The notes under the pieces were generated by a model. The model saw only the letters and a list, made by a program, of their open reading frames with translations, made no database searches and had not been told where the DNA came from. Positions 1 to 25,493 of a stretch of 33,179 nucleotides of DNA are shown piece after piece (positions within the stretch are counted from its first letter, which is position 1; every line of letters starts with the position of its first letter). The stretch is from an uncultured bacterium. GTDB lineage: Bacteria > Patescibacteriota > Minisyncoccia > UBA9983. The DNA is taken from contig CAJVWH010000007.1 in assembly GCA_913009575.1 (NCBI GenBank), forward strand, positions 1 to 33,179, given 5' to 3'. A program made the position numbers and the translations under genes.

Positions 1-78
1 TTTTTTTTTTTTCAAGCAGAAGACGGCATACGAGATATATCAGTGTGACTGGAGTTCAGACGTGTGCTCTTCCGATCT
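1..78. other. Illumina TruSeq P7 adapter (sequencing artefact)
   Basis: Twelve T residues are followed at 13-78 by a full P7 adapter that ends in the familiar CTTCCGATCT. The 8-base barcode (ATATCAGT on this strand) corresponds to the TruSeq index I remember as number 25. The same adapter occurs reverse-complemented at 33022-33087. The sequence is not genomic. It supplies a false GTG start and the first five residues (MLFRS) of the first reading frame. Genomic sequence begins at 79. Confidence 0.98.
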
Positions 79-3000
79 TGGAATGGAACAAATGGATACA
101 GCATTAGGACAGACTCAATAATTGGACAAGTGCAACAATCTGCTACAGGGGGAGATGCAAGATTTTTCATAAAAAATAATGCTGGTAGTGAGGTCTTATC
201 TATTGATTTGTCAACCGGCAACATCGGCATTGGGACCACTTCTCCCGCCACCAAACTCTCCGTTTCCGGAAACGGCTATCTGACCGGCGGGCTCGGGGTC
301 GGCGTTCTCAACACAACGGCCGGAACTCTCCAGACCTCGGGCAACGCCACCATCGGCGGAAATCTCACGGTGTCGGGAACGGACACAACCCTGGTGAACG
401 CCTCCACCACCCTCCTCTCGGTGGCAAACAATTTCTGGTCAAACGGAACCACCAACATTGGAAACGCCGACGCGGACACTCTCAACATCCGCTCCGGCGA
501 TTGGAACCTCACCTCAACCGCCACCACCACCGTGGCAATGACCAACGGGCTGAACTTTGACTCCAATACCTTCGTCATTGACCCGAACAGCGGAAATGTG
601 GGGATAGGGACGGCGTCGCCAAGCGCAGCGTTGGATATTAAAAGTTCACAAACAGCGGGTATTGTCGGCGTCGCCGCTTTTCGTTCCCAACAAACAAGCG
701 GCAGTTTTAGGGGAAATGCTATCCTGCTTGATAATTTAAACTCAACCGGCAGTATGAATAATCAAATTATATTCAGGGGGCGCGGAACTGATGAATGGAG
801 TATTGAGAGTGACGGTGAAGGCAACGGAACCCATTCTTTTGATATATGGGATCCCATTAACAGTGTTACAGCTTTGTATATAGATTCTTCTGACAACATC
901 GGCATTGGGACCACCTCTCCCGCTTCAAAACTGGCGGTGAGCGGGGGAGCGAGCATCGGCGCGGATTACAACACCGCCGCTCCGACAAACGGGCTGATAG
1001 TGGAGGGAAATGTGGGGATAGGGACGGCGAGTCCGAAATCCAAGTTATATGTTTCCGCTACGGATGAGATTAATCCCATAGGTATTACGGTCGCAAACTT
1101 GGGCAACAATCAGAGCACTTTTGTAGATTTTTTGGAAAATGGAAGCGCAAGCGGAGAACCATCTTGGGGAGGATATTCATCATCAAACAATGCTTTCGGC
1201 TTCCGGTTAAAATATGACGGTGATGCTAATAAATTTGAAATAATTTCAGGAAAAAGCGTTGCCGACACCAGCTGGACTGAAAATGTTCGTTTGGCAATAG
1301 AACGCAATTCCGGCAATGTCGGCATCGGCACCACGACGCCTTACGCGAAACTCTCGGTTGCAGGAAATACGGCGCTTGACTCTAATATTATTAATTTTGC
1401 TTCGTCAACCGCTTCAACGCTCACTTTCAATTACCTTTCGTCAGCCACTTCAACCATTCTTGATTTAACAAATTATTCTTGGAGCATCGCCACCGGAACC
1501 GCGGCGGCCCCTATCTTTACGATTGACACAAGGGGAAGCAAGGCCACTTCAACTTTTACCGGCGGGTTTGTTCTTGATAACGGAAAATTCAAATATGATT
1601 ACGGCGCGGGAACGGTTTCTATTCCGAAACTTGATTTAGGGAACATTTCATTTGAAGACAACGCCGGTACTGTCTCATGGGCTGATTTGGCAGTTACTTC
1701 TTCCGCGCCGGCGGGGACAAAAGAATCTTACACGGCGCAAATTGATTCCACGCCTCTTTTGACAATTTACGCTGAATCAAACGGCTCCGGCGGCATCCAA
1801 AATTCCGCTGTCGGCATCGCTCAATCCTCTCCCTCCGTTCTACTCGCGGTCGGCTCTTCAACTCCGAATTATATTCTCGCGGCAGAGGCATACCGTTCTA
1901 TGTATGTCGCCGGACAAATGGAGATTGGAGGGACGGGAACTTCAACCGTGGCTAACAACCTTTACGTGATGGGCACCTTGCGGGCGGCGAATTCGTATGT
2001 CGGCGACCTTATTTTTAGCAATGGCTTCAGGTTTGTTGAATCGGCGGACGGCGTTGTTCCGCGGGCGCTGTTTTTGCAGAGTCCGGATAAGGAGACGCGT
2101 TTCGCGATTGACGAAAACGGCAACGTGGGAATAGGCACGACGACGCCGGCGTATAAACTGCATGTGCTTGGGGATGTTGCGGCGCAGGCGTTCATAAATA
2201 TTTCCACCAGAGAGGCGAAAAAAGATATCGTGTTTTTGGGAGACGGGGATTACAAGGACGCCTTGAATAAAATCGCGAGCACGAGCGTGGCGACTTATTA
2301 TTATAAGGACGAGATTTGCGGGGATTCCGCGGAGGCGGCCACGGGGGCCGGTTCGGGTTCGGGTTTGGGCTGCGAGAAGCGGCTCGGTTTGATAGCGGAG
2401 GAGGCGCCGAAGGAGGTGCTTTCGGTAAACAGCAAAGGTGTTGATATTTACAAGATGGCTTCCATGGCTTGGGCCGGAATAAGGGAATTGTCTTCGGAGA
2501 TGGACGCGCAGAAAAAGAAAATCGCGGATATGGAATTGCGGATTGAAGATTTGGAGGCGGGCGCCGGCGCGGCGGGCGGTTCGGGAGGCGGTTCGGGCGG
2601 AGGCGCGGTTTCAATTTCGGACAGTTTCGCCCAGATTTTGGCATGGTTTAAAGAAATTGGAATTCAGATTTCACAAGGGGTTGTGCAGGCGAAGGAATTT
2701 ATCGCTGACAAAATTACGGTTAAGAAAGTCGTGGCCAACGCGCTAGAGATGAAGGATTCGGTGACCGGCGAAGTATATTGCGTGCGAATTTCCAACGGGA
2801 AGTGGGATAAATTTAAGGGAACCTGCGGGGAATCTGCTCCTTCGGATTCCGGCGGCGCGAGTGGTTCCGGCGCGGCGGGCGCGGATACCGAACCGCCGGT
2901 GATTACACTGCAGGGGAATAATCCGGCCAATGTTTCCGTGGGCGCGAGTTACGGCGATTTGGGAGTTGTAATTACCGATAATGTTGACAAGAATCTTGGT

Positions 3001-3468
3001 TACGAAGTATGGCGGGACGGGCAATATCTCGGCAGAAACTTGAGCGGGGTGTCGGTTGACACGAGCTCTTCAACCGAACATACGATAAGTTATGCCGCGA
3101 CTGACAACTCGGGAAACACGGCGACTTCAACAAGAAAAATAATCGTTTCCGATTCGGGTAGTTCGGGCAATTCCGGCAGTTCAGATGGTTCAAGCGCGGC
3201 AACCACGACACCCGATGGAAGCGCCGGAACTTCGGCGACAACCACTCCGGATAGCAGTGGCGGAGGAACGGCGACCACGACCGGCTCCGGCTCGGGCAGT
3301 GATTCTGGAGGTGTTCCCTCGGGAAGCGGCGGTTTCGGTTCGGATTCGGCAACTTCTTCGGCGACATCAACTTCTGATGGAACTTCATCGGCAAGTGGCA
3401 CGAATAGCGCTTCCGGAACGGCATCCACCACCACCACCACTGCCGCCACCAGCACGTCAACGCAATAA
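79..3468 (+). CDS. Large surface/fibre-like protein with NVGIGT repeats and an internal peptidase-S74 domain (5' truncated)
   Basis: The gene is open from the adapter junction, so its true N-terminus is missing. The first ~2.1 kb encodes beta-rich, Thr/Ser/Asn-rich sequence with six copies of the motif G-N-[VI]-G-I-G-T-[TA]-[ST]-P followed by [KL]LxVxG (near nt 220, 595, 895, 1009, 1312, 2122) plus a degenerate one near 1807. These repeats are common in fibre-like proteins. At about 2190-2560 the segment STREAKKDI leads into a peptidase-S74 intramolecular chaperone domain. The Ser and the Lys five residues later match the Ser/Lys pair that drives self-cleavage in phage endosialidase chaperones. 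A short coiled coil (DAQKKKIADMELRIEDLE) follows. Unusually, the chain continues with a Gly-rich linker, a bacterial Ig-like domain (starting TEPPVITLQGN, about 2887-3145) and a Ser/Gly/Thr-rich tail. Role inferred: a trimeric cell-surface fibre. The substrate is unknown. Confidence 0.85.
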   Translation, partial: WNGTNGYSIRTDSIIGQVQQSATGGDARFFIKNNAGSEVLSIDLSTGNIGIGTTSPATKLSVSGNGYLTGGLGVGVLNTTAGTLQTSGNATIGGNLTVSGTDTTLVNASTTLLSVANNFWSNGTTNIGNADADTLNIRSGDWNLTSTATTTVAMTNGLNFDSNTFVIDPNSGNVGIGTASPSAALDIKSSQTAGIVGVAAFRSQQTSGSFRGNAILLDNLNSTGSMNNQIIFRGRGTDEWSIESDGEGNGTHSFDIWDPINSVTALYIDSSDNIGIGTTSPASKLAVSGGASIGADYNTAAPTNGLIVEGNVGIGTASPKSKLYVSATDEINPIGITVANLGNNQSTFVDFLENGSASGEPSWGGYSSSNNAFGFRLKYDGDANKFEIISGKSVADTSWTENVRLAIERNSGNVGIGTTTPYAKLSVAGNTALDSNIINFASSTASTLTFNYLSSATSTILDLTNYSWSIATGTAAAPIFTIDTRGSKATSTFTGGFVLDNGKFKYDYGAGTVSIPKLDLGNISFEDNAGTVSWADLAVTSSAPAGTKESYTAQIDSTPLLTIYAESNGSGGIQNSAVGIAQSSPSVLLAVGSSTPNYILAAEAYRSMYVAGQMEIGGTGTSTVANNLYVMGTLRAANSYVGDLIFSNGFRFVESADGVVPRALFLQSPDKETRFAIDENGNVGIGTTTPAYKLHVLGDVAAQAFINISTREAKKDIVFLGDGDYKDALNKIASTSVATYYYKDEICGDSAEAATGAGSGSGLGCEKRLGLIAEEAPKEVLSVNSKGVDIYKMASMAWAGIRELSSEMDAQKKKIADMELRIEDLEAGAGAAGGSGGGSGGGAVSISDSFAQILAWFKEIGIQISQGVVQAKEFIADKITVKKVVANALEMKDSVTGEVYCVRISNGKWDKFKGTCGESAPSDSGGASGSGAAGADTEPPVITLQGNNPANVSVGASYGDLGVVITDNVDKNLGYEVWRDGQYLGRNLSGVSVDTSSSTEHTISYAATDNSGNTATSTRKIIVSDSGSSGNSGSSDGSSAATTTPDGSAGTSATTTPDSSGGGTATTTGSGSGSDSGGVPSGSGGFGSDSATSSATSTSDGTSSASGTNSASGTASTTTTTAATSTSTQ

Positions 3469-3473
3469 AAATT

Positions 3474-5756
3474 ATGAAAAATAAAGAAAAATTTTCAAGC
3501 TTAACAAAACTTCTTATTCTCATAACTGTTGCCGCCGTACCGGTGTTTGTTTTTTTTTCATTCAGCGCGTTCAGCGAAACGATAATAGGCAAACTTCTGG
3601 TTAGCGCGACAACTCATATCGGCAAAACACTCAAAACAAATCCCGGCTTGGAAAACGGGCTTGTCGGCCATTGGACCTTTGACGGCAAAGATATGTACAG
3701 TAATATTGCCGACACCTCGGGACAGGGCAATGACGGCACATTTTTCCCGGGAGCCGTTCAGGCCGCCACGCTTGATTCGGGGGCCGATGCCACCAACGCA
3801 TCGGGTTTCTCAACCGGTTCGGTTGCGCCGAGCGCGAATAGTTTGGAGCTTATGGCAATTTCCATAAGTTGGGCCGGCGCGTCAGTGGCGTCCGCGCCGC
3901 CGGTAACCGTTACCGGCAACAATCTTACATGGGAACTCGTGGCGTCTCAAATTTATTTTCCCGACGGGACGGGCAATTGGTGGAATACACTTTATCTTTA
4001 TCGCGCGATGGGAGCTAATCCCTCCAGCGGGAGCGTCACGGTGGACCTTGGCGCGAACACTTTTGACTCTGCCGCTTTTTCACTCGTTGAATTCAGCAAC
4101 GTTGACACATCCGGCTCCAACGGTTCCGGCGCCGTTATACAAAGCGCGGCAAATAACGACACCGGCGTCAGCGCGATTGCGGTGACATTGGGGTCCTTCA
4201 GCAGTACCGGAAATGCGACCTATGGCGTATTCGGCGCCGGTGATTCCGACGCGACCGCCCGCACATTTACGCCGGGAACGGGATTCACCGAACTTCATGA
4301 TACAGGCATTGAATACGCGTCAATCGGCACGCAGTGGCGCGCCGACAACGATACAAGTGTTGATACCACGGCCAGCGCGCTGACGGAGGGATTGGGCGGA
4401 ATAGCGATTGAGATTAAACCTAACGCCACCACCACGGCGCCGGGCGCCATCGGCCAATCCTTGAAGTTTGACGGGCTGGAAGATTACGTGAAAGTGCCTT
4501 CCTCCACTGATTTTGATTTTAATTACACCGCCGGTTTTTCAGGTTTTATGTGGTTTAAGAAAGACGGAGACTGCGATAGCCGGGAAACGAACAACAATGA
4601 GGTTTTTTTGAGTAGGTTTGGAGCCAGCGATGCCGACAACACATGGTGGTTTGGATGTTTTGGCATTGGAGACAGCGACGCGAATAAACTCATAATAGAC
4701 ATAGAAGATTTGGGCGCGGGAGGGTATGTTGAAGGTGTAACGGCTATCAACGACGCCCAATGGCATTACGCCGGCTGGACATACGACAGCGGAGCTGGAA
4801 CACTCAATTTATATTTGGACGGTTCGCTTGAAAATTCAACAACAACTATCTCCAGTTTTTATTTGAGCTCTTCAAATCCTCTTTGTATCGGCAATTACAA
4901 TGTCGACTGCGGTGTTACTGCCGACAACTATGACTATAAGGGTTCTCTTGACGATGTCCGCCTTTACAACCGCGCTTTGTCCGCAGACGAAATTAAACGC
5001 CTTTATCAAATGGGCGCGACAACGCATATTGCCAAAACCCTTAAAACCAATCCCGGCTTGGAAAACGGGCTTGTCGGCCATTGGACCTTTGACGGCAAAG
5101 ATATGTACAGTAATATTGCCGACACCTCGGGACAGGGCAATGACGGCAGTCTTCAGCTTGGAGTATCCGGCAACATTTCCACCACCACGGCGCCGGGCGC
5201 CATCGGCCAATCCTTGAAGTTTGACGGAGTGGACGATTATGTGGATATAGGTGATGTTACAACCTTTGACAATCTGACACAGATGACAATTTCAGCATGG
5301 GTTAAACAGGATTCACTGACTGATGATGACGTATTAATCGGAAAAATAGTCAATTCACCACTTTGGGATGGCTTTCTTTTGTTTCGGGACGATGTCGGCG
5401 GGGCTTCCGGACGAACAGACACTTACAAATTTGAAGTTGATTACCAATCAAATAACTCTTCCATTGAAGGAGCCACTAATGCTTCACAACAAGGTGTTTG
5501 GACACACGTCGTCGGTACTTTTGCGGGGAACAGCAGCACCGGATTAAGGTTATATATAAATGGTGTTGAGGACGCAAATTCGCCCGTGAGCACTGTTGGC
5601 ACTTTAAACACAAGCTCTAATTCCGACCTGGTGAGGATTGGCAATTCCAATGCTTTTGCCGGCAAGGAATTTAACGGAGCAATAGACGATGTCCGCATTT
5701 ACAACCGCGTTTTGTCCGCAGACGAAATTAAACGCCTTTATCAAATGGGCAGATAA
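3474..5756 (+). CDS. Secreted protein with two LamG/concanavalin-like domains, the first split by an inserted beta domain
   Basis: A 760-aa protein starting 5 nt after the previous gene, probably co-transcribed. Residues 1-35 form a Lys-rich head and a hydrophobic segment (signal peptide or membrane anchor). Two LamG-like jelly-roll units follow, each opening with NPGLENGLVGHWTFDG and ending with the DDVRxYNRxLSADEIKRLYQMG signature of the LamG family (carbohydrate or protein binding). In the first unit about 215 residues of a different Ala/Ser/Thr-rich beta domain lie between the opening strand and the APGAIGQSLKFDG strand. The second unit has only ~12 residues there. Exact DNA repeats (100 bp and 49 bp) show a recent internal duplication. 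No catalytic motif was seen. Likely an extracellular adhesin paired with the upstream fibre protein. Confidence 0.85.
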   Translation: MKNKEKFSSLTKLLILITVAAVPVFVFFSFSAFSETIIGKLLVSATTHIGKTLKTNPGLENGLVGHWTFDGKDMYSNIADTSGQGNDGTFFPGAVQAATLDSGADATNASGFSTGSVAPSANSLELMAISISWAGASVASAPPVTVTGNNLTWELVASQIYFPDGTGNWWNTLYLYRAMGANPSSGSVTVDLGANTFDSAAFSLVEFSNVDTSGSNGSGAVIQSAANNDTGVSAIAVTLGSFSSTGNATYGVFGAGDSDATARTFTPGTGFTELHDTGIEYASIGTQWRADNDTSVDTTASALTEGLGGIAIEIKPNATTTAPGAIGQSLKFDGLEDYVKVPSSTDFDFNYTAGFSGFMWFKKDGDCDSRETNNNEVFLSRFGASDADNTWWFGCFGIGDSDANKLIIDIEDLGAGGYVEGVTAINDAQWHYAGWTYDSGAGTLNLYLDGSLENSTTTISSFYLSSSNPLCIGNYNVDCGVTADNYDYKGSLDDVRLYNRALSADEIKRLYQMGATTHIAKTLKTNPGLENGLVGHWTFDGKDMYSNIADTSGQGNDGSLQLGVSGNISTTTAPGAIGQSLKFDGVDDYVDIGDVTTFDNLTQMTISAWVKQDSLTDDDVLIGKIVNSPLWDGFLLFRDDVGGASGRTDTYKFEVDYQSNNSSIEGATNASQQGVWTHVVGTFAGNSSTGLRLYINGVEDANSPVSTVGTLNTSSNSDLVRIGNSNAFAGKEFNGAIDDVRIYNRVLSADEIKRLYQMGR
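3639..3738 (+). repeat. 100-bp exact repeat, copy 1 (start of LamG unit 1)
   Basis: Identical over 100 bp to 5049-5148, in the same reading frame. It encodes the opening strands of a LamG domain. A second identical 49-bp pair is 4426-4474 and 5179-5227. Confidence 0.95.
5049..5148 (+). repeat. 100-bp exact repeat, copy 2 (start of LamG unit 2)
   Basis: Exact copy of 3639-3738, 1410 bp downstream. The ends of the two LamG units (4948-5012 and 5687-5751) are also almost identical. Confidence 0.95.
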
Positions 5757-14958: not shown

Positions 14959-15030
14959 GCCACCTTAGCTCAGTGGTAGAGCAACGGTTTTGTAAACCGT
15001 AGGCCGTCAGTTCGAATCTGACAGGTGGCT
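14959..15030 (+). tRNA. tRNA-Thr (anticodon TGT)
   Basis: A 72-nt cloverleaf. Acceptor GCCACCT (14959-14965) pairs with AGGTGGC (15023-15029), discriminator T at 15030. The D arm is AGCTCAGTGGTAGAGC, the anticodon loop TTTGTAA gives TGT, and the T arm is GTCAG-TTCGAAT-CTGAC. CCA is not encoded. It lies 2 nt from the stop codon before it and 2 nt from the start codon after it. Confidence 0.97.
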
Positions 15031-18493: not shown

Positions 18494-18533
18494 ATGTCCA
18501 TTAGAATCCGCCATGGCGGATTCTAATGGACAT
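18494..18533. repeat. Perfect 40-bp palindrome
   Basis: The left arm at 18494-18513 (starting ATGTCCATTAG) and right arm at 18514-18533 are exact reverse complements with no spacer. The core GAATCCGCCATGGCGGATTC resembles the rpiB palindrome. It ends 17 bp before the TTGACA of the next promoter. Confidence 0.95.
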
Positions 18534-18585: not shown

Positions 18586-18740
18586 TAGTCCTTGACCGAT
18601 AGAGATTAATATAATAAATTAAAAGGCACAAATGTCCATTATAATTCATTGGAATTATGGAAAATAAGATGAGGAAAATAGACGTTTCATCAGTAAATAA
18701 ACAGCCACGCGCGGGTTTTCCGCGTGTGGTTTTTATTATT
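18586..18740 (+). ncRNA. Candidate small RNA or attenuator leader (~150 nt)
   Basis: The stretch 18330-18782 has no convincing gene. It holds a strong promoter (18551-18579) and a strong intrinsic terminator (18705-18740), defining a transcript of about 150 nt. This could be an independent small RNA or a leader that attenuates the secreted-protein gene at 18783. A second TTGACC / TATAAT pair (18592-18615) has too short a spacer to count. The sequence matches no RNA family I recognise. Confidence 0.4.
18705..18740 (+). terminator. Intrinsic terminator
   Basis: CCACGCGCGG (18705-18714), GTTTT loop, CCGCGTGTGG (18720-18729), then TTTTTATTATT. One G-T pair in the stem. Confidence 0.85.
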
Positions 18741-18782: not shown

Positions 18783-19478
18783 ATGAAAAAATTACTTGCA
18801 AGTTCAACGGTTTTGGCAATGCTGGTTTCCGTCACTCCGGCTTTAGCTTACGGAGGATGGACGGGAATTCATAACAACAACAATGCGACTATCGGGAACA
18901 CTGTTGTTGTTGGAGCCAACACCGGTGGCAACACAGCTAACGGAAATAACGGCGGAAATGGCGGAAATGGCGGAAATGTATGGAACTCTGATGACGATAA
19001 CACGGGCGGAAACGGAGGAAACGGAAGTTATGGCGGAAACGGCGGAGCAATTTATACCGGTTCCGCCACGGCAGGGGCGGTTGTGGAAAATGACGTGAAT
19101 TCAAACCTTGCAGTTGTGAACAACTGCGGATGTGAGAATCGCTGTGATCCTTGCTATGACCCATGCCAAGATGAGTGCGATTCTTGCCAATGGCGGGAAG
19201 ACGGTACGGAGGTCAATAACTACAACCATGCGACTGTCTGGAACAATGTTGTTGTTGGAGCCAACACGGGAGGAAATATCGCTAACGCGGGCAGAGGCGG
19301 GGACGGCGGACACGGAGGAGATGTCGGCCAGTATGACCCCGATGACAACAACACCGGCGGAAACGGCGGAGCTGGAGGACACGGCGGAAATGGAGGCATT
19401 ATTACGACTGGGTGGTCAGACTCTTACGCGCAGGTTGTTAATGTTGTCAACACCAACATTACCCGCATCCGACGCTAA
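18783..19478 (+). CDS. Secreted Asn/Gly-rich repeat protein with a cysteine cluster
   Basis: A 231-aa exported protein with signal peptide 1-22 (ending ALA). Two modules share the pattern [AT]-x-x-N-x-V-V-V-G-A-N-T-G-G-N-x-A-N (NATIGNTVVVGANTGGNTAN; HATVWNNVVVGANTGGNIAN), each followed by Gly-Gly-Asn runs such as GGNGGNGGN. Between them, residues ~114-136 hold seven cysteines in about 20 residues (CGCENRCDPCYDPCQDECDSC, with C-x-x-C spacings), suggesting metal binding or disulfide cross-links. It closes with NVVNTNITRI. The module recurs in the next two genes, so the three probably build one surface structure. Composition is strongly biased; no enzyme motif. The upstream terminator suggests regulated expression. 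Confidence 0.8.
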   Translation: MKKLLASSTVLAMLVSVTPALAYGGWTGIHNNNNATIGNTVVVGANTGGNTANGNNGGNGGNGGNVWNSDDDNTGGNGGNGSYGGNGGAIYTGSATAGAVVENDVNSNLAVVNNCGCENRCDPCYDPCQDECDSCQWREDGTEVNNYNHATVWNNVVVGANTGGNIANAGRGGDGGHGGDVGQYDPDDNNTGGNGGAGGHGGNGGIITTGWSDSYAQVVNVVNTNITRIRR

Positions 19479-19615
19479 GAATTTCGGTACGGAAGTTTTT
19501 TTGAGACCTTCAAGGTTCTCTGCGCAGACGCCAACGGAGGTAAGAAGGGATATTTTCCTTCTTCCTTCGGGCAGACGCTTGAAAATTTTAGAAACTTTGA
19601 GCGTTTGCGCGAGGG

Positions 19616-20236
19616 ATGATGAAAAAATTTAAAGTTAAAAATTTAAAGTTAAAAATTTTAGGAATGGCGGTTTGCTTGTCTTTGTTCAGTGTCGTTCCGT
19701 TTTTAGCGAAAGCTTCTTTCTTTGATGATTTGTTTCCGGGCGTGTTCAGCGGAGGTAATGTTAACGGAGGAAGCGGAACGAATGTGACAAACGAGATTAA
19801 TGTTTCCGCCACTACGGGCGGTAATTCCGCAAACGGGAAAAACGGCGGGAACGGAGAGAACGGTAAGAACGGAGAGAATGGAAAAAGCGGAGAGATAAAA
19901 GAAGGCAAATCGGAAATCAGAATTGAGATAAAAAATACCGTCAACGGAAAAGAGATGGAGCCGACAAGCATAAAAACCAAGGGAAGCAAAGTTGAAGTGA
20001 GAAGTAAAATTGAAATTAACGGAAACGAAAAGCCGTCCATTGAAAAGAAAATCAAAATTGACGGCGAAAAAATCGGCGGGAAAGATGAAGAGAAAAATTT
20101 CGCGAAATCGGGGAATAATTTAAAAGATGGAAACAGGAAAAAGCCGGAGATAAGCGAAAAAGCGGGCGGTAAGTGGATAAGAGTATTTTTAGAAAACCTT
20201 AAGTCTTTTTTCCAAAATATTTTCAGCATTTTTTAA
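19616..20236 (+). CDS. Secreted Lys/Asn/Gly-rich protein sharing the TGGN module
   Basis: A 206-aa exported protein. GAGGG precedes paired ATGs at 19616 and 19619; either fits. The head is very basic (MMKKFKVKNLKLK), then a signal peptide to about residue 33 (FLAKA). One copy of the module is present (NVTNEINVSATTGGNSANG), followed by KNGGNGENGKNGENGK. The C-terminal half is charged, with alternating strands (SEIRIEIKNTV, SKVEVRSKIEI), ending in an amphipathic LENLKSFFQNIFSIF helix. No family is recognised. It sits 5 nt before the next gene and is likely co-transcribed with it. Probably a partner of its neighbours at the cell surface. Confidence 0.75.
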   Translation: MMKKFKVKNLKLKILGMAVCLSLFSVVPFLAKASFFDDLFPGVFSGGNVNGGSGTNVTNEINVSATTGGNSANGKNGGNGENGKNGENGKSGEIKEGKSEIRIEIKNTVNGKEMEPTSIKTKGSKVEVRSKIEINGNEKPSIEKKIKIDGEKIGGKDEEKNFAKSGNNLKDGNRKKPEISEKAGGKWIRVFLENLKSFFQNIFSIF

Positions 20237-20241
20237 ACGGT

Positions 20242-23034
20242 ATGGATGAATACAATAAAATCAAAAAAGCGTTTTTAATTTCTTTGCTCACCGCGAGTTT
20301 GGTTTCTTTCGGTTTTTCGGCGCCGCTCGTTTTCGCCGCGGCCGAGGCAACTTCAACGCCGGATACTGAAATTGGCGGGGGAACGGCATCAACTACCCCC
20401 GAAAGTGAAATTAGCGGCGGAACGTCGTCAACCACGCCCGCTGAACCGGCGGTCGTAGAAACCGGGGATGCCGTTTCGCAAACGCAGGCGGACAATGAAA
20501 TCAACACGAATATTACGGACACTGCCGCTGCCGCCACAACCACAATTGAAAATGAAAACAGCGCTGATATTAAAAATAACGCTACGACAACGGCGGACAC
20601 GGGAAATAACGAGGCGAATAACAATGGAAGCGGCGGCGCGGCTATAAACACCGGCAACGCTTATGCCACCGCCAATATCGTAAATGTCGCCAATACCAAC
20701 ATTCTTAATTCCGAGGGAATGCTCTTATTTTTAAATAATTTTTTCGGCTCTTTGGGAACCGTGGACCTGAGAAGATTGAATCTTGGTTTCTTCGGCTTGT
20801 CCGGCGGAACGAGTCCGGAAAGCCAAAATTCGGAAGACCAAACAACGAATGACGGAAGTGAAGGATGTTCACTTTCCGAATGCGGCGGCAGTGAAACCGT
20901 AAATAATACCAATACCGCGAGCATCACCAATAATGTTGTCGTCCGCTCTTCAACCGGCGGAAACACCGCCAATGGAAACGCGGGCGGCGCGGACATAAAT
21001 ACCGGCAACGCCTATGCCGCCGCCAACGTCGTCAATGTGGCCAATACCAACATTTCCGATTCAAAATATTTGGTTCTTGTATTGAACAATTTCGGCGATT
21101 GGAATAATGACATGGTCTTTCCCGGCAAGAATTTTTTCAGCCAGCTGTTTTCAAACAACAAGAACGGCACCAATGGGGGAGGTGGCATTAAAGTAAATAA
21201 TGATAACGAAGCGGATATTAAAAATAATGTTTCCGTCTCCGGCGACACGGGAAATAATGAGGCCAATGGAAACGCGGGCAATTCGGAAATTAATACCGGC
21301 AACGCCTATGCCGCCGCCAATGTTGAAAACAATGTGAATACCAATGTTTTCGGCGGGATACCATTTATAGTTTCTTTCCGCATTCACGGCAACTGGTCTG
21401 GGAATGTTTTCAGCGCGCCAAAGGGAATCTCTTGGAGGCAGACACCGTCCGGCATCCAGCTTTTCGGCGGAGAAGAGATAAGTGAGATGTTGGATGATCC
21501 TTCATCAACTCCGAGAATTCATTCAACCGGCGATTCTTCACCTGAAATCGGAGGACCGGCAACAGAAATCAACAATACCAATAAAGCAAAAATAACCAAT
21601 AATATTAAAGTCTTGGCCCTGACGGGAGATAACAGAATCAACGGCGGAGGGAAAGCGTCCATAAATACCGGCAACGCCTACGCAGCCGCCAATGTTCTCA
21701 ATATAAGCAACACGAATATTATAGGCAGAAACTGGATATGGGCGATTATAAATATTTTCGGCGATTGGAAAGGAAATATCGCTTTTGGCAGGCCTGACTT
21801 GTGGATAGGAGGACGCGCCGAGGTTGACAGGGACCCAGTCGGACCCGGTTCAAAAATCACTTATCACTTTACCATAACAAACAACGGAGATGCCGATGCC
21901 ACGGGCGTGAGCATCATTGACAAATTTGACCCCAAATTATTGTCCTTTGACGGGTTTAATTTTGGCGGAGGCAAGGCGTTTTGGAACATAGGGACTGTGG
22001 CGGCAGGCGATACTAAAGATATATCTTACAGCGCCACTGTGGATTCCAATCTCGCTTACGGCGAGACCGACATTGACAGCACCATTAAAGTTGAAAGCGC
22101 TGAAACGGACAATAATGAAGAAGACAACACTGATTTTATAACCGTAACGGCTTTCAGGCAACAAAGGCGGCAGATGACGGGAACCCGCGTTATTCTCACG
22201 CCCGACCCCGTTTTGCGCATTACAAAAACAAATGACGCCACGGACCGGCTTACCGCCAGCAGTACCGTTGATTACAAAATTATAATTAAAAACAGCGGGG
22301 GGCCTGCGTACCATTCAGTCTTGTTTGACACGCTAAGGAACGAGCAGGGAAGAATTATAAACAGGCAAAGCTGGAATTTGGATGAAATTCACAACAATGA
22401 AGAAATCACCGTCAATTACTCATTGTTTTTTAACGCGAGCACCACGCCGGGAACATATACGAATTATGCGCGAGTGAAGGCCGTCGGCCGCCATCCGTCA
22501 CTTGACCCTTTTTACGGATGGTTCGCGAATTCTCCCGTCGCCTCTTCCACGATTGAAATAATGGAAGATAAAACTCCAAACATCCAAAATCAATCGGCTC
22601 AGGAACCGGAAGGGAATGAAGTTGTTTTGACAAGAATGGGGCAAAGCATTGATATGTTCAGCGGAAGAATCAGGATAATAAGGAAAGAAATAGAAAAGGG
22701 AGTCGCGCTTGGAAATTTAGTGCCCAAATTGGTAAAAGTTCCGCCTGTGGCGCCGGTTCAAATAAAAACCGCTGGGAATGGGAGAAGAGGGAAAAATATC
22801 AGTTTGCCGCCAAACCGAATTTTCTTTGAAGAGATGGCGCCGAAGCCGATTAAGCCAAAAATTAAAAACTTTAAATCTTTCTCCGCGCTTTCAGCCGGTG
22901 TGGGTGAAATTTGGCCGGACACTTTAATGGGTTTTCGTGATTTTGTGCTTGATTTCATTAATCCCCCCATTCTTAGAATTAACGTATGGGGAAAAATAAA
23001 ACCTTTATTGTTTTCGCCGCTCTCTCGGCTATAA
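20242..23034 (+). CDS. Large secreted protein with four Asn-rich modules and two DUF11-like domains
   Basis: A 930-aa exported protein; signal peptide to about residue 34. A Thr/Ser linker follows, then four copies of a ~52-residue module: ITNNVVV..TGGNTANG..INTGNAYAAANVVNVANTNI (nt ~20557, 20903, 21193, 21568), each trailed by a hydrophobic strand and N-x-F-G-D-W-x-G-N. This is the long form of the module in the two genes before it and probably folds as a beta-solenoid. Two DUF11/CARDB-like beta-sandwich domains follow (KITYHFTITNNGDADATGVSI, ~530-640; VDYKIIIKNSGGPAYHSV, ~660-755), as in bacterial surface proteins. The C-terminal ~170 residues are basic and unassigned. No sortase motif or terminal membrane anchor was seen. 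Confidence 0.85.
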   Translation: MDEYNKIKKAFLISLLTASLVSFGFSAPLVFAAAEATSTPDTEIGGGTASTTPESEISGGTSSTTPAEPAVVETGDAVSQTQADNEINTNITDTAAAATTTIENENSADIKNNATTTADTGNNEANNNGSGGAAINTGNAYATANIVNVANTNILNSEGMLLFLNNFFGSLGTVDLRRLNLGFFGLSGGTSPESQNSEDQTTNDGSEGCSLSECGGSETVNNTNTASITNNVVVRSSTGGNTANGNAGGADINTGNAYAAANVVNVANTNISDSKYLVLVLNNFGDWNNDMVFPGKNFFSQLFSNNKNGTNGGGGIKVNNDNEADIKNNVSVSGDTGNNEANGNAGNSEINTGNAYAAANVENNVNTNVFGGIPFIVSFRIHGNWSGNVFSAPKGISWRQTPSGIQLFGGEEISEMLDDPSSTPRIHSTGDSSPEIGGPATEINNTNKAKITNNIKVLALTGDNRINGGGKASINTGNAYAAANVLNISNTNIIGRNWIWAIINIFGDWKGNIAFGRPDLWIGGRAEVDRDPVGPGSKITYHFTITNNGDADATGVSIIDKFDPKLLSFDGFNFGGGKAFWNIGTVAAGDTKDISYSATVDSNLAYGETDIDSTIKVESAETDNNEEDNTDFITVTAFRQQRRQMTGTRVILTPDPVLRITKTNDATDRLTASSTVDYKIIIKNSGGPAYHSVLFDTLRNEQGRIINRQSWNLDEIHNNEEITVNYSLFFNASTTPGTYTNYARVKAVGRHPSLDPFYGWFANSPVASSTIEIMEDKTPNIQNQSAQEPEGNEVVLTRMGQSIDMFSGRIRIIRKEIEKGVALGNLVPKLVKVPPVAPVQIKTAGNGRRGKNISLPPNRIFFEEMAPKPIKPKIKNFKSFSALSAGVGEIWPDTLMGFRDFVLDFINPPILRINVWGKIKPLLFSPLSRL

Positions 23035-23162
23035 CACCGGCAAATACGGATTGTCGGCAAAAATGGAAAAGACAGTGGCAGTAATGAATCCCGCGCCAAG
23101 CGAAATTTTCGCGGCTGTTGATAAGTCGCTTGACGAAGCGGGCGATATTTCAGAAAATAAAG

Positions 23163-25019
23163 ATGTATATGAAAAATAATAAAGCGTTTTTAATTTTTGC
23201 GGTTGCCGTGGGAATGATTTTCTTTAATTTAGCTGGTTTAAGCGAGGCGCGCACCGGTTTGCGCGAACGGTCTGCGAGGCCGGAGAGGCCGGAATTCAAG
23301 ACAGATGAAATTATAGTGAAATTGAAAGGAGACGAATCTTTCCGGAGAATTCGCGTCGCGCGGGAGGAAAATGTTGAACGGACGCTTGAACGGTATAAAG
23401 GGCGCGCCGATGTTGAGTACGCGGAGCCGAATTATATGGCTTACGCGCTGTCCGTTCCCAATGACCCTTATTATTCTTACCAATGGAATTTTGACAATCC
23501 GGTTTACGGCGGAATCCACACGGCGCAAGCGTGGGATATTTCAACGGGAGCGGGTGTAACCGTGGCAGTGGTTGACACCGGAACGGCTTATGAAAATTAT
23601 TCTCCAAGCTGGCGCGAAAGATATTATCTCGCGCCTGATTTGGCGGATACTTCTTTCGCGGCCGGATATGATTTCGTAAACAATGATACGCACCCAAATG
23701 ATGACGAAGGGCACGGCACCCATGTTGCGGGAACGATTGCCCAAAGCACGAACAATGGAATCGGAGTGGCGGGCGTCGCTTACGGAGCGACCATTATGCC
23801 GATTAAAGTTTTGGACAGCAGGGGAAGCGGGACTTACGCCGATGTCGCGGACGGCATTCGCTGGGCGGCGGACCACGGAGCAAAGGTTATCAATCTCTCG
23901 CTCGGCGGCTCTTCTCCGGCAACTTATCTTGAAGAGGCGGCCGCTTACGCTTATAACAAGGGGGTTACCATTGTGGCGGCGGCCGGCAATGACGGCGCCG
24001 CTTCTCTCAGTTATCCCGCCGCTTACGATAAATATGTAATCGCAGTCGGCGCCACACGCTATGATGAAAGTTTGGCGCCCTATTCCAATTATGGCCCCGG
24101 CCTTGATTTGGTGGCTCCGGGAGGAGATTTGAATGTTGACCAAAACAACGATGGATACGGAGACGGCATCTTGCAGCAGACCTTCAATAGGAGAACCAAC
24201 AGGTGGGGATATTATTTTTATCAGGGAACTTCAATGGCGTCTCCTCATGTCGCCGGCGTCGCGGCCTTGCTTATTTCAAACGGCAGCGCCACGGCTCCCG
24301 ATGATGTGAGAATGGCGCTTCAATCAACCGCCGAAGACCTTGGCCCCGCGGGCAAAGACGACACCTACGGATATGGATTAGTGGACGCGGCGGCGGCTTT
24401 GAATTGGAACTCAGGCGCGGTTTTACCGCCGCCATTGCCACCGCCACCGCCATCCTATCAGTGCAATGACGGAATTGACAACGACGGCGACGGAATGATT
24501 GATTATCCCGATGACCCGGGATGTGATTCATCAACCGATGACGATGAGTACAACGCTCCACCTCCGCCACCAAGCGGTGAGATAGAAGTTTTTTCCGACA
24601 GTTTTGAAAGCGGCCTGTCCAATTGGACTCAGGATAGGCAAAATGATTGGTTTGTTTCAACTCAGCGCGCGGTGGACGGCAGCCATTCGGCGGAAATTGA
24701 CGGCTGGACAAGAAACGGACAATTAATTTCAATTCCGCTTGATTTGCAGGGTAAAACAAGCGCGGACATAAGTTTTTCCTGGTATATTGAAAGAACTGTT
24801 GACAGGAGGGAATACATCGCCTTTGACATTTCCACGGACGGGGGAAGCAGCTGGATGGAGAAGGCGCGCCTGCGGGGAAATGTTGACAAGGAAGATGTTT
24901 GGCATAATGAAAAAATCCAATTAAACAATATCAATAATCTCCGCCTCCGGTTCAGGGGAAAAATGTCCCGCTCCAACGAAGACGCCGATGTTGATATGGT
25001 CAAAGTAATCGCCCGATAG
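23163..25019 (+). CDS. Secreted subtilisin-like serine protease (S8) with Asp-rich loop and C-terminal beta domain
   Basis: A 618-aa exported protease. Start at ATG 23163, or 23169, just before KNNKAFLIF; no clear Shine-Dalgarno. The signal peptide ends near SEA, then an inhibitor-like propeptide (DEIIVKLKG...VEYAEPNY). The catalytic triad is complete: D138 (AVVDTGTA), H184 (EGHGTHVAG), S357 (GTSMASPHVAG). After a Pro-rich hinge comes QCNDGIDNDGDGMIDYPDDP, a calcium-type loop shared with the GWAW protein, a second Pro-rich linker, and a C-terminal jelly-roll domain (FSDSFESGLSNW..., ~475-618). It follows the repeat-protein genes and could process or release them, but that is inference. A degradative role on external protein is equally possible. 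Confidence 0.95.
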   Translation: MYMKNNKAFLIFAVAVGMIFFNLAGLSEARTGLRERSARPERPEFKTDEIIVKLKGDESFRRIRVAREENVERTLERYKGRADVEYAEPNYMAYALSVPNDPYYSYQWNFDNPVYGGIHTAQAWDISTGAGVTVAVVDTGTAYENYSPSWRERYYLAPDLADTSFAAGYDFVNNDTHPNDDEGHGTHVAGTIAQSTNNGIGVAGVAYGATIMPIKVLDSRGSGTYADVADGIRWAADHGAKVINLSLGGSSPATYLEEAAAYAYNKGVTIVAAAGNDGAASLSYPAAYDKYVIAVGATRYDESLAPYSNYGPGLDLVAPGGDLNVDQNNDGYGDGILQQTFNRRTNRWGYYFYQGTSMASPHVAGVAALLISNGSATAPDDVRMALQSTAEDLGPAGKDDTYGYGLVDAAAALNWNSGAVLPPPLPPPPPSYQCNDGIDNDGDGMIDYPDDPGCDSSTDDDEYNAPPPPPSGEIEVFSDSFESGLSNWTQDRQNDWFVSTQRAVDGSHSAEIDGWTRNGQLISIPLDLQGKTSADISFSWYIERTVDRREYIAFDISTDGGSSWMEKARLRGNVDKEDVWHNEKIQLNNINNLRLRFRGKMSRSNEDADVDMVKVIAR

Positions 25020-25136: not shown

Positions 25137-25493
25137 ATGATTAAAAGTCTTTTTGCGACGCTTGCGGTTGTTGCCCTGATTTTTGTTTTTGCGGGACCGG
25201 CGGCAGCTTGCGGCGAAGACAGCGGTTGTGGATGGAGTTTCAGCGCCGGAACGGATTACGGGCAGAATCAGTGGGCAAATTTCAAGATTCAGCAAGACCC
25301 GGGTTTCTCCTCGTATTCCGGCGGAGTCCAGCATCAAAGGATATGGGCTTCCGGACAGGATGGCAGTTTTGATGGAAAAATAACCCAAGCCCAGGGATTG
25401 AACCAAAAGTTCAAAATTCCGGGCGGAAAAGCGTACCAATTCTCAGAGAGTACGCTGACTACAAAATTGAGTTTCGGTGATTTAGACAACTAA
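25137..25493 (+). CDS. Small secreted protein of unknown function
   Basis: A 118-aa exported protein. The start is fixed by AGGAGG at 25125-25130, 6 nt upstream of the ATG. The signal peptide ends near PAAA, followed by Cys25 and Cys31 (CGEDSGCGW); the region is not a canonical lipobox. The mature part is polar and aromatic-rich with predicted strands (GWSFSAGTDYG, KLSFGDLD). No family is recognised. It is first in a cluster with two larger exported genes, with a perfect hairpin after it that may set its expression above theirs. Confidence 0.75.
   Translation: MIKSLFATLAVVALIFVFAGPAAACGEDSGCGWSFSAGTDYGQNQWANFKIQQDPGFSSYSGGVQHQRIWASGQDGSFDGKITQAQGLNQKFKIPGGKAYQFSESTLTTKLSFGDLDN

Follow-up and report, generated by a model that had tools for sequence, protein, structure and literature searches.

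Three consecutive genes on the plus strand of the window (the whole stretch of DNA that was analysed, 33,179 nucleotides) encode proteins of 231, 206 and 930 amino acids that have in common one module of approximately 60–80 residues, and they are followed on the same strand by a gene for an S8 subtilase (Table 1). The genome that holds the window comprises 652 kb in 39 contigs and is 95% complete; its source bacterium is tiny and probably host-dependent, and the 930-type gene is single-copy in it. By inspection all three module proteins have an export-type N-terminus, in agreement with the secretion signals proposed in the earlier note.

Table 1. Features of the module cluster and cargo fusions found at related loci.
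Feature	Position	Strand	Remarks
231-aa small module protein	18783..19478	+	ORF, alignments, synteny
231-aa protein, module 1 (residues 29-111)	18867..19115	+	Gly-rich loop between halves
231-aa protein, cysteine-rich linker	19125..19193	+	7 Cys
231-aa protein, module 2 (residues 143-226)	19209..19460	+	
231-aa protein, C-terminal TRIRR	19461..19475	+	
206-aa protein	19616..20236	+	
206-aa protein, diverged module	19775..19960	+	
206-aa protein, conserved C-terminal hydrophobic/amphipathic segment	20183..20233	+	
930-aa large module protein, putative scaffold	20242..23034	+	
930-aa protein, orphan second half-module	20452..20517	+	VVETGDAVSQTQADNEINTNIT
930-aa protein, module 1	20542..20748	+	
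930-aa protein, module 2 with extension	20896..21135	+	NNFGDW extension
930-aa protein, module 3 with extension	21193..21426	+	HGNWSGN extension
930-aa protein, module 4	21565..21804	+	with NIFGDWKGNIAFGRPDLW, the most conserved stretch
930-aa protein, two Ig-like DUF11 domains	21820..22485	+	PF01345
S8 subtilase	23118..25019	+	fervidolysin-type prodomain, D-H-S motifs; linked in 15/57 loci
Cargo fusion, ice-binding-like	L033:5807-7258		PF11999
Cargo fusion, VWA + SpaA	L021:2179-4539		
Cargo fusions, PA14- or CE2_N-like	L033:4387-5769, L040:7407-8510		

The 231-aa protein contains two copies of the module, the 206-aa protein one diverged copy, and the 930-aa protein four copies plus an N-terminal half-copy. 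In the aligned copies the first half of the module follows the pattern xNxNxAxIxNxVxVxAxTGxNxA and the second half the pattern xIxTGxAxAxAxVxNxxNTN. Between the halves is a loop, which is long with many Gly residues in the 231-aa protein but short in the 930-aa protein. The 930-aa modules continue after the second half with a third part, FGDWxGN.

Module matches were scored with a profile made only from the modules of other genomes, with the rows of the window removed, and shuffled sequences of the same composition were used as controls. Modules 1 to 4 of the 930-aa protein score 53.7, 77.5, 69.3 and 100.9 bits, compared with 7.8 for the best shuffled stretch, and its N-terminal half-module is weak (11.2). 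The module halves of the 231-aa protein, which is 21% Gly and 17% Asn, score 14.0, 5.5, 17.0 and 15.7 with the same profile, and the whole protein reaches 39.0 bits against a shuffle maximum of -5.3. The module match of these two proteins is far from chance, and the shuffles rule out coincidental composition as its source. On its own the 206-aa protein gives a weak, borderline match (10.9 against a shuffle maximum of 7.0 for the stretch, 8.5 against 8.2 for the whole protein). It is recovered genome-wide by a 231-type profile from which the 206 member was left out (E = 3.5e-9), and its relatives retain a fuller module copy (e.g. ‘ITNDISVSASTGGNNVSGG..TIQTGSAKAEVKIQTTVNGE’). The common module of three adjacent genes, as first noted, is thus borne out directly for the 930- and 231-aa proteins and through relatives for the 206-aa protein. 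No family of Pfam, NCBIfam or PHROGs covers the modules and no relative of them is found among PDB sequences; it is an unnamed beta-strand module. A phage origin was rejected, as IMG/VR contigs contain no relative and PHROGs give no match.

The 231-aa protein consists of a signal peptide, a module, a Cys-rich linker, a second module and a basic C-terminal tail. Two modules with a Cys-containing linker are also usual for the small proteins of nearer relatives, and a CGC-type motif in the linker is kept in most close relatives. The C-terminus is of a T/V-R-I/V-x-R type that is found in 26 of the 35 small module proteins examined, and also on cargo fusions. Small proteins at four loci (L030:7433-8476, L022:7592-8614, L028:7289-8374 and L041:7425-8609) have two modules with very long Ser-rich (or Ser/Asn-rich) linkers.

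In the 206-aa protein the signal peptide is followed by the single diverged module, a charged region and a C-terminal hydrophobic segment of FFxNIFSIF type. A 206-type gene, recognised by a loose C-terminal rule, lies between the small and large genes in about 17 of 57 loci. It often overlaps the large gene by 22–25 bp, and therefore translational coupling of the pair is suggested.

The 930-aa protein begins with a signal peptide and the orphan half-module, after which come the four modules, a pair of DUF11/Ig domains and a C-terminal tail. The DUF11 match (PF01345) scores 55.6 bits against the curated cut-off of 24.6. The orphan second half-module at the N-terminus is present in many 930-type relatives, among which module copy number differs. 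With a strict hydropathy cut-off, 28 of 50 large proteins have a C-terminal membrane segment, in the form of a hydrophobic segment followed by a basic tail; hydropathy reveals no clear segment of this kind in the protein of the window. In the stretch concerned (22860-23034), a loose DNA alignment with the closest relative, L014, contains a 7-base gap, from which a frame change at the C-terminus is possible.

An AlphaFold2 model of residues 54-770 of the 930-aa protein, made with an alignment of 37 sequences, has a mean pLDDT of 82, with the module strands mostly at 80–97. The repeats are predicted to be all-beta, and the secondary structure of the model gives each module a 20-residue strand, two 4-residue strands, an 11-residue, a 3-residue and an approximately 9-residue strand. 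Judged from this secondary structure, the module is more like a long kinked hairpin than a solenoid. The solenoid proposed earlier is not supported, given these long strands and the lack of a solenoid among the listed fold matches. The 50 matches listed for the 930-aa model are to proteins of Ig type, RbmA and integrins among them, and seem to involve the Ig pair only; a weaker match of the module itself may stand below these 50. The model of the 231-aa protein repeats the strand pattern of both module halves at a low pLDDT of 55; its fold search gave nothing significant, with snow flea antifreeze protein at E = 4.9.

Matches to the 930-aa protein occur in 7 of 55 near genomes, its own included; in one of these the match is confined to the DUF11 region. 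In the wider phylum sample the module profile, of the kind that the earlier note had proposed to run against candidate-phyla genomes, finds matches in 42 of 380 genomes. A collection of 84,980 species genomes was scanned with the last module of the 930-aa protein, which holds the most conserved stretch, since an alignment that included all seven modules proved too loose. The scan thus addresses one module subtype, and distant forms may exist outside the phylum. It returned 36 loci, and every locus with a named group belongs to Patescibacteria (Zambryski-, Taylor-, Kaiser-, Giovannoni-, Yonath-, Ryan-, Portnoy-, Doudna-, Nomura-, Shapiro- and Berkelbacteria, and others).

Gene order is conserved together with the module. 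A small module gene immediately precedes the large gene, on the same strand, in 53 of the 57 distinct loci, so that the linkage in relatives, whose absence had been named beforehand as grounds for refutation, holds. Three of the four exceptions are contig ends (L014, L043 and L053), and the fourth (L089, with a small protein of 576 aa) is a matter of labelling only.

Other neighbours in the 57 loci were ranked from an all-against-all comparison with no families preselected. S8 subtilases come first with 15 loci, followed by TasA-like proteins, SipW-type signal peptidases and CAP proteins with 10 loci each. The subtilase of the window matches PF00082 with 209.1 bits and has the motifs DTG, HGTHVAG and GTSMASPH. 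An S8 gene lies within about 10 kb of the module in 12 of 24 tested module genomes, where 0.93 would be expected, and nine linked subtilases, that of the window included, form one clade (99/100 support) that contains no unlinked member among 20 subtilases from the same genomes. Across whole genomes, S8 presence does not track the module (23 of 42 genomes with it versus 164 of 338 without, p = 0.51), and genome G145, which has no module match, encodes a 68%-identical subtilase away from any module gene. The subtilase link is strong, neither universal nor exclusive. The association with the downstream protease suggested in the earlier note thus stands as local linkage and fails as genome-level co-occurrence, and an obligate partnership was rejected on the latter ground and on that of the close unlinked relative. 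Of the 8 genomes with SipW-cognate genes, 5 have them near the cluster, where 0.42 would be expected. In one genome, module hits stand beside two SipW-cognate genes (G195:C3:556274-560751) about 20 kb from the main cluster and may mark a second module locus.

Within the clusters, the same C-terminal module with its basic tail is also fused behind other domains (cargo fusions, Table 1). Two further carriers, at L015 and L038, are called TasA-like from their FTD-type N-termini, not from a family match, and have the half-modules in permuted order, the second half preceding the first. Judging from these architectures the module is probably an assembly or docking domain, mainly because scaffold, free subunit and varied cargo all bear it.

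In outline the cluster is like curli or TasA systems, yet it lacks what marks their members. As in curli, a small secreted subunit and a partner with Asn/Gly-rich beta repeats are encoded by adjacent genes, and by analogy one module protein could template the other. Unlike curli, the 930-aa protein of the window has an Ig stalk, and a membrane anchor is usual in its relatives. Curlin-repeat strands are also shorter than the 20-, 11- and 9-residue strands predicted here. The curlin repeat (PF07012) is absent from the three proteins (Pfam, E up to 1) and from 25 small-protein relatives (E up to 0.01), and CsgG (PF03783) from six module genomes, that of the window included, with a positive E. coli control; curli was rejected on the absence of these defining parts. 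TasA/camelysin and SipW systems are alike in export and in a likely matrix role, their genes are neighbours in 10 of 57 loci, and two TasA-like proteins carry the module. The window proteins have no SipW-dependent signal (TIGR04088) and no camelysin match (PF12389), and the genome encodes no SipW-dependent TasA-like protein by TIGR04088.

Sortase-assembled pili were likewise rejected, as the three proteins contain neither an LPxTG nor an NPQTN-type motif and sortase (PF04203) is absent from six module genomes. Proteins with DUF11 (PF01345) share with the 930-aa protein the domain that it has twice, whereas the family definition covers neither the module region nor the small partner, nor the cluster as such. 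Cellulosomes offer an analogy in a scaffold of repeated modules and cargo with a common C-terminal docking region, but here scaffold and cargo bear one identical module type and not complementary ones, and cohesin and dockerin gave no match. Type V pili are alike in secreted subunits, a linked protease and incomplete half-modules; they differ in that Pfam and NCBIfam show no family match here and the protease is not universal. A search of open-access literature on Patescibacteria or Parcubacteria with curli, camelysin, DUF11 and TasA found no description of the cluster. The recurrence of the gene pair across Patescibacteria, together with the fusion of the module to adhesive-type domains, suggests an undescribed way to assemble or load cell-surface proteins.

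A surface role, as the earlier note held, is supported by the DUF11 Ig domains, the C-terminal membrane segment of many relatives and the cargo fusions. The reading that we favour, at about even odds, is that these genes form a surface assembly with the one beta-strand module as its common assembly (docking) domain. In such an assembly the 930-type protein looks like the scaffold, which after export would hold four to five modules outward, with its two DUF11 Ig domains as the stalk, and would be retained, in many relatives, by the C-terminal membrane segment. The 231-type would be the main free subunit, attached through its two modules, with strands probably added edge-to-edge onto other modules, and we infer that a polymer or fibre could result. 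Variants with VWA, ice-binding-like or PA14-like domains would be cargo or adhesins, loaded as the 231-type is, through C-terminal module and tail. With its single module and its hydrophobic segment at the C-terminus, the 206-type may act at the membrane, where it would either initiate or cap the assembly. In some lineages, exported components are probably trimmed by the subtilase or SipW-type signal peptidase encoded nearby. Counting against assembly are the limited occurrence of the 206-type and S8 genes, the low confidence of the 231-aa model, the lack of a SipW-dependent TasA-like protein in the genome of the window, and the missing membrane segment of its own 930-aa protein. More tentatively, the cluster may be a sortase-free display or fibre system of Patescibacteria, in which a single module serves as receptor on the scaffold and as plug of the subunit and of interchangeable adhesive cargo, and which would attach ultrasmall cells to host cells or surfaces.

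Surface proteins that combine repeats with an Ig-like stalk are commonly adhesins, and the proteins could instead act independently. Each module would then be a self-contained domain that binds a glycan, a mineral or the surface of a host, and the genes would adjoin through co-expression, not assembly. The variable module copy number and the ice-binding-like and VWA domains among the cargo fusions agree with such a role. We nevertheless find it unlikely, as a separate small module protein without an anchor is kept beside the large one in nearly all loci, and orphan and permuted half-modules would be odd for closed domains. Those same half-modules, at the 930-type N-terminus and in the TasA-like proteins, would fit a protease-activated strand-exchange fibre resembling type V pili or TasA, in which an N-terminal piece is removed by the subtilase or signal peptidase and the incomplete module is completed by a strand of the next subunit. 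Donor-strand exchange is known for TasA (PMC9674648), and the excess of linked S8 and SipW-cognate genes over expectation points the same way. In contrast, the modules of the 231-type look complete, no cleavage site was identified, and the protease is not nearby in most loci, so that such a fibre seems improbable.

Resemblance by composition only, through low-complexity convergence of Asn/Gly-rich proteins, would account for the Gly and Asn content of the 231-aa protein and for a 206 module that, taken alone, is close to the shuffle maximum. It is hard to reconcile with the far lower scores of same-composition shuffles of the 930- and 231-aa proteins, a fixed position-specific pattern over many genera and the conserved gene order, and we regard it as very improbable.

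Those Patescibacteria that have been cultivated live on other microbes, and host recognition and binding by them are largely unknown (PMC12206443). With its module in about one in nine genomes of the phylum sample, the cluster offers a specific candidate for a surface assembly in which adhesive parts are interchangeable, and supplies clear protein pairs for binding study.

Several features flank the cluster. Ahead of it, the intergenic region contains a perfect palindrome (18494-18533) whose 34 bp used for searching, TCCATTAGAATCCGCCATGGCGGATTCTAATGGA, have one copy genome-wide. A terminator-like hairpin followed by a T-rich run (18703-18731) lies about 50 bp 5' of the 231 start codon; it has no Rfam match and could be the end of an upstream transcript or a leader attenuator. 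No RNA element was found beside the cluster, the tRNA at 14959-15030 being the sole one in the window. On the 3' side of the subtilase, a 118-aa protein (25137-25493) with an export-type N-terminus and three cysteines matches no family above cut-off. Near the start of the window (64-5756), surface-type domains occur in two large proteins: a bacterial surface Ig-like domain in one, and Laminin_G_3 domains with a partial TafC-like match in the other.
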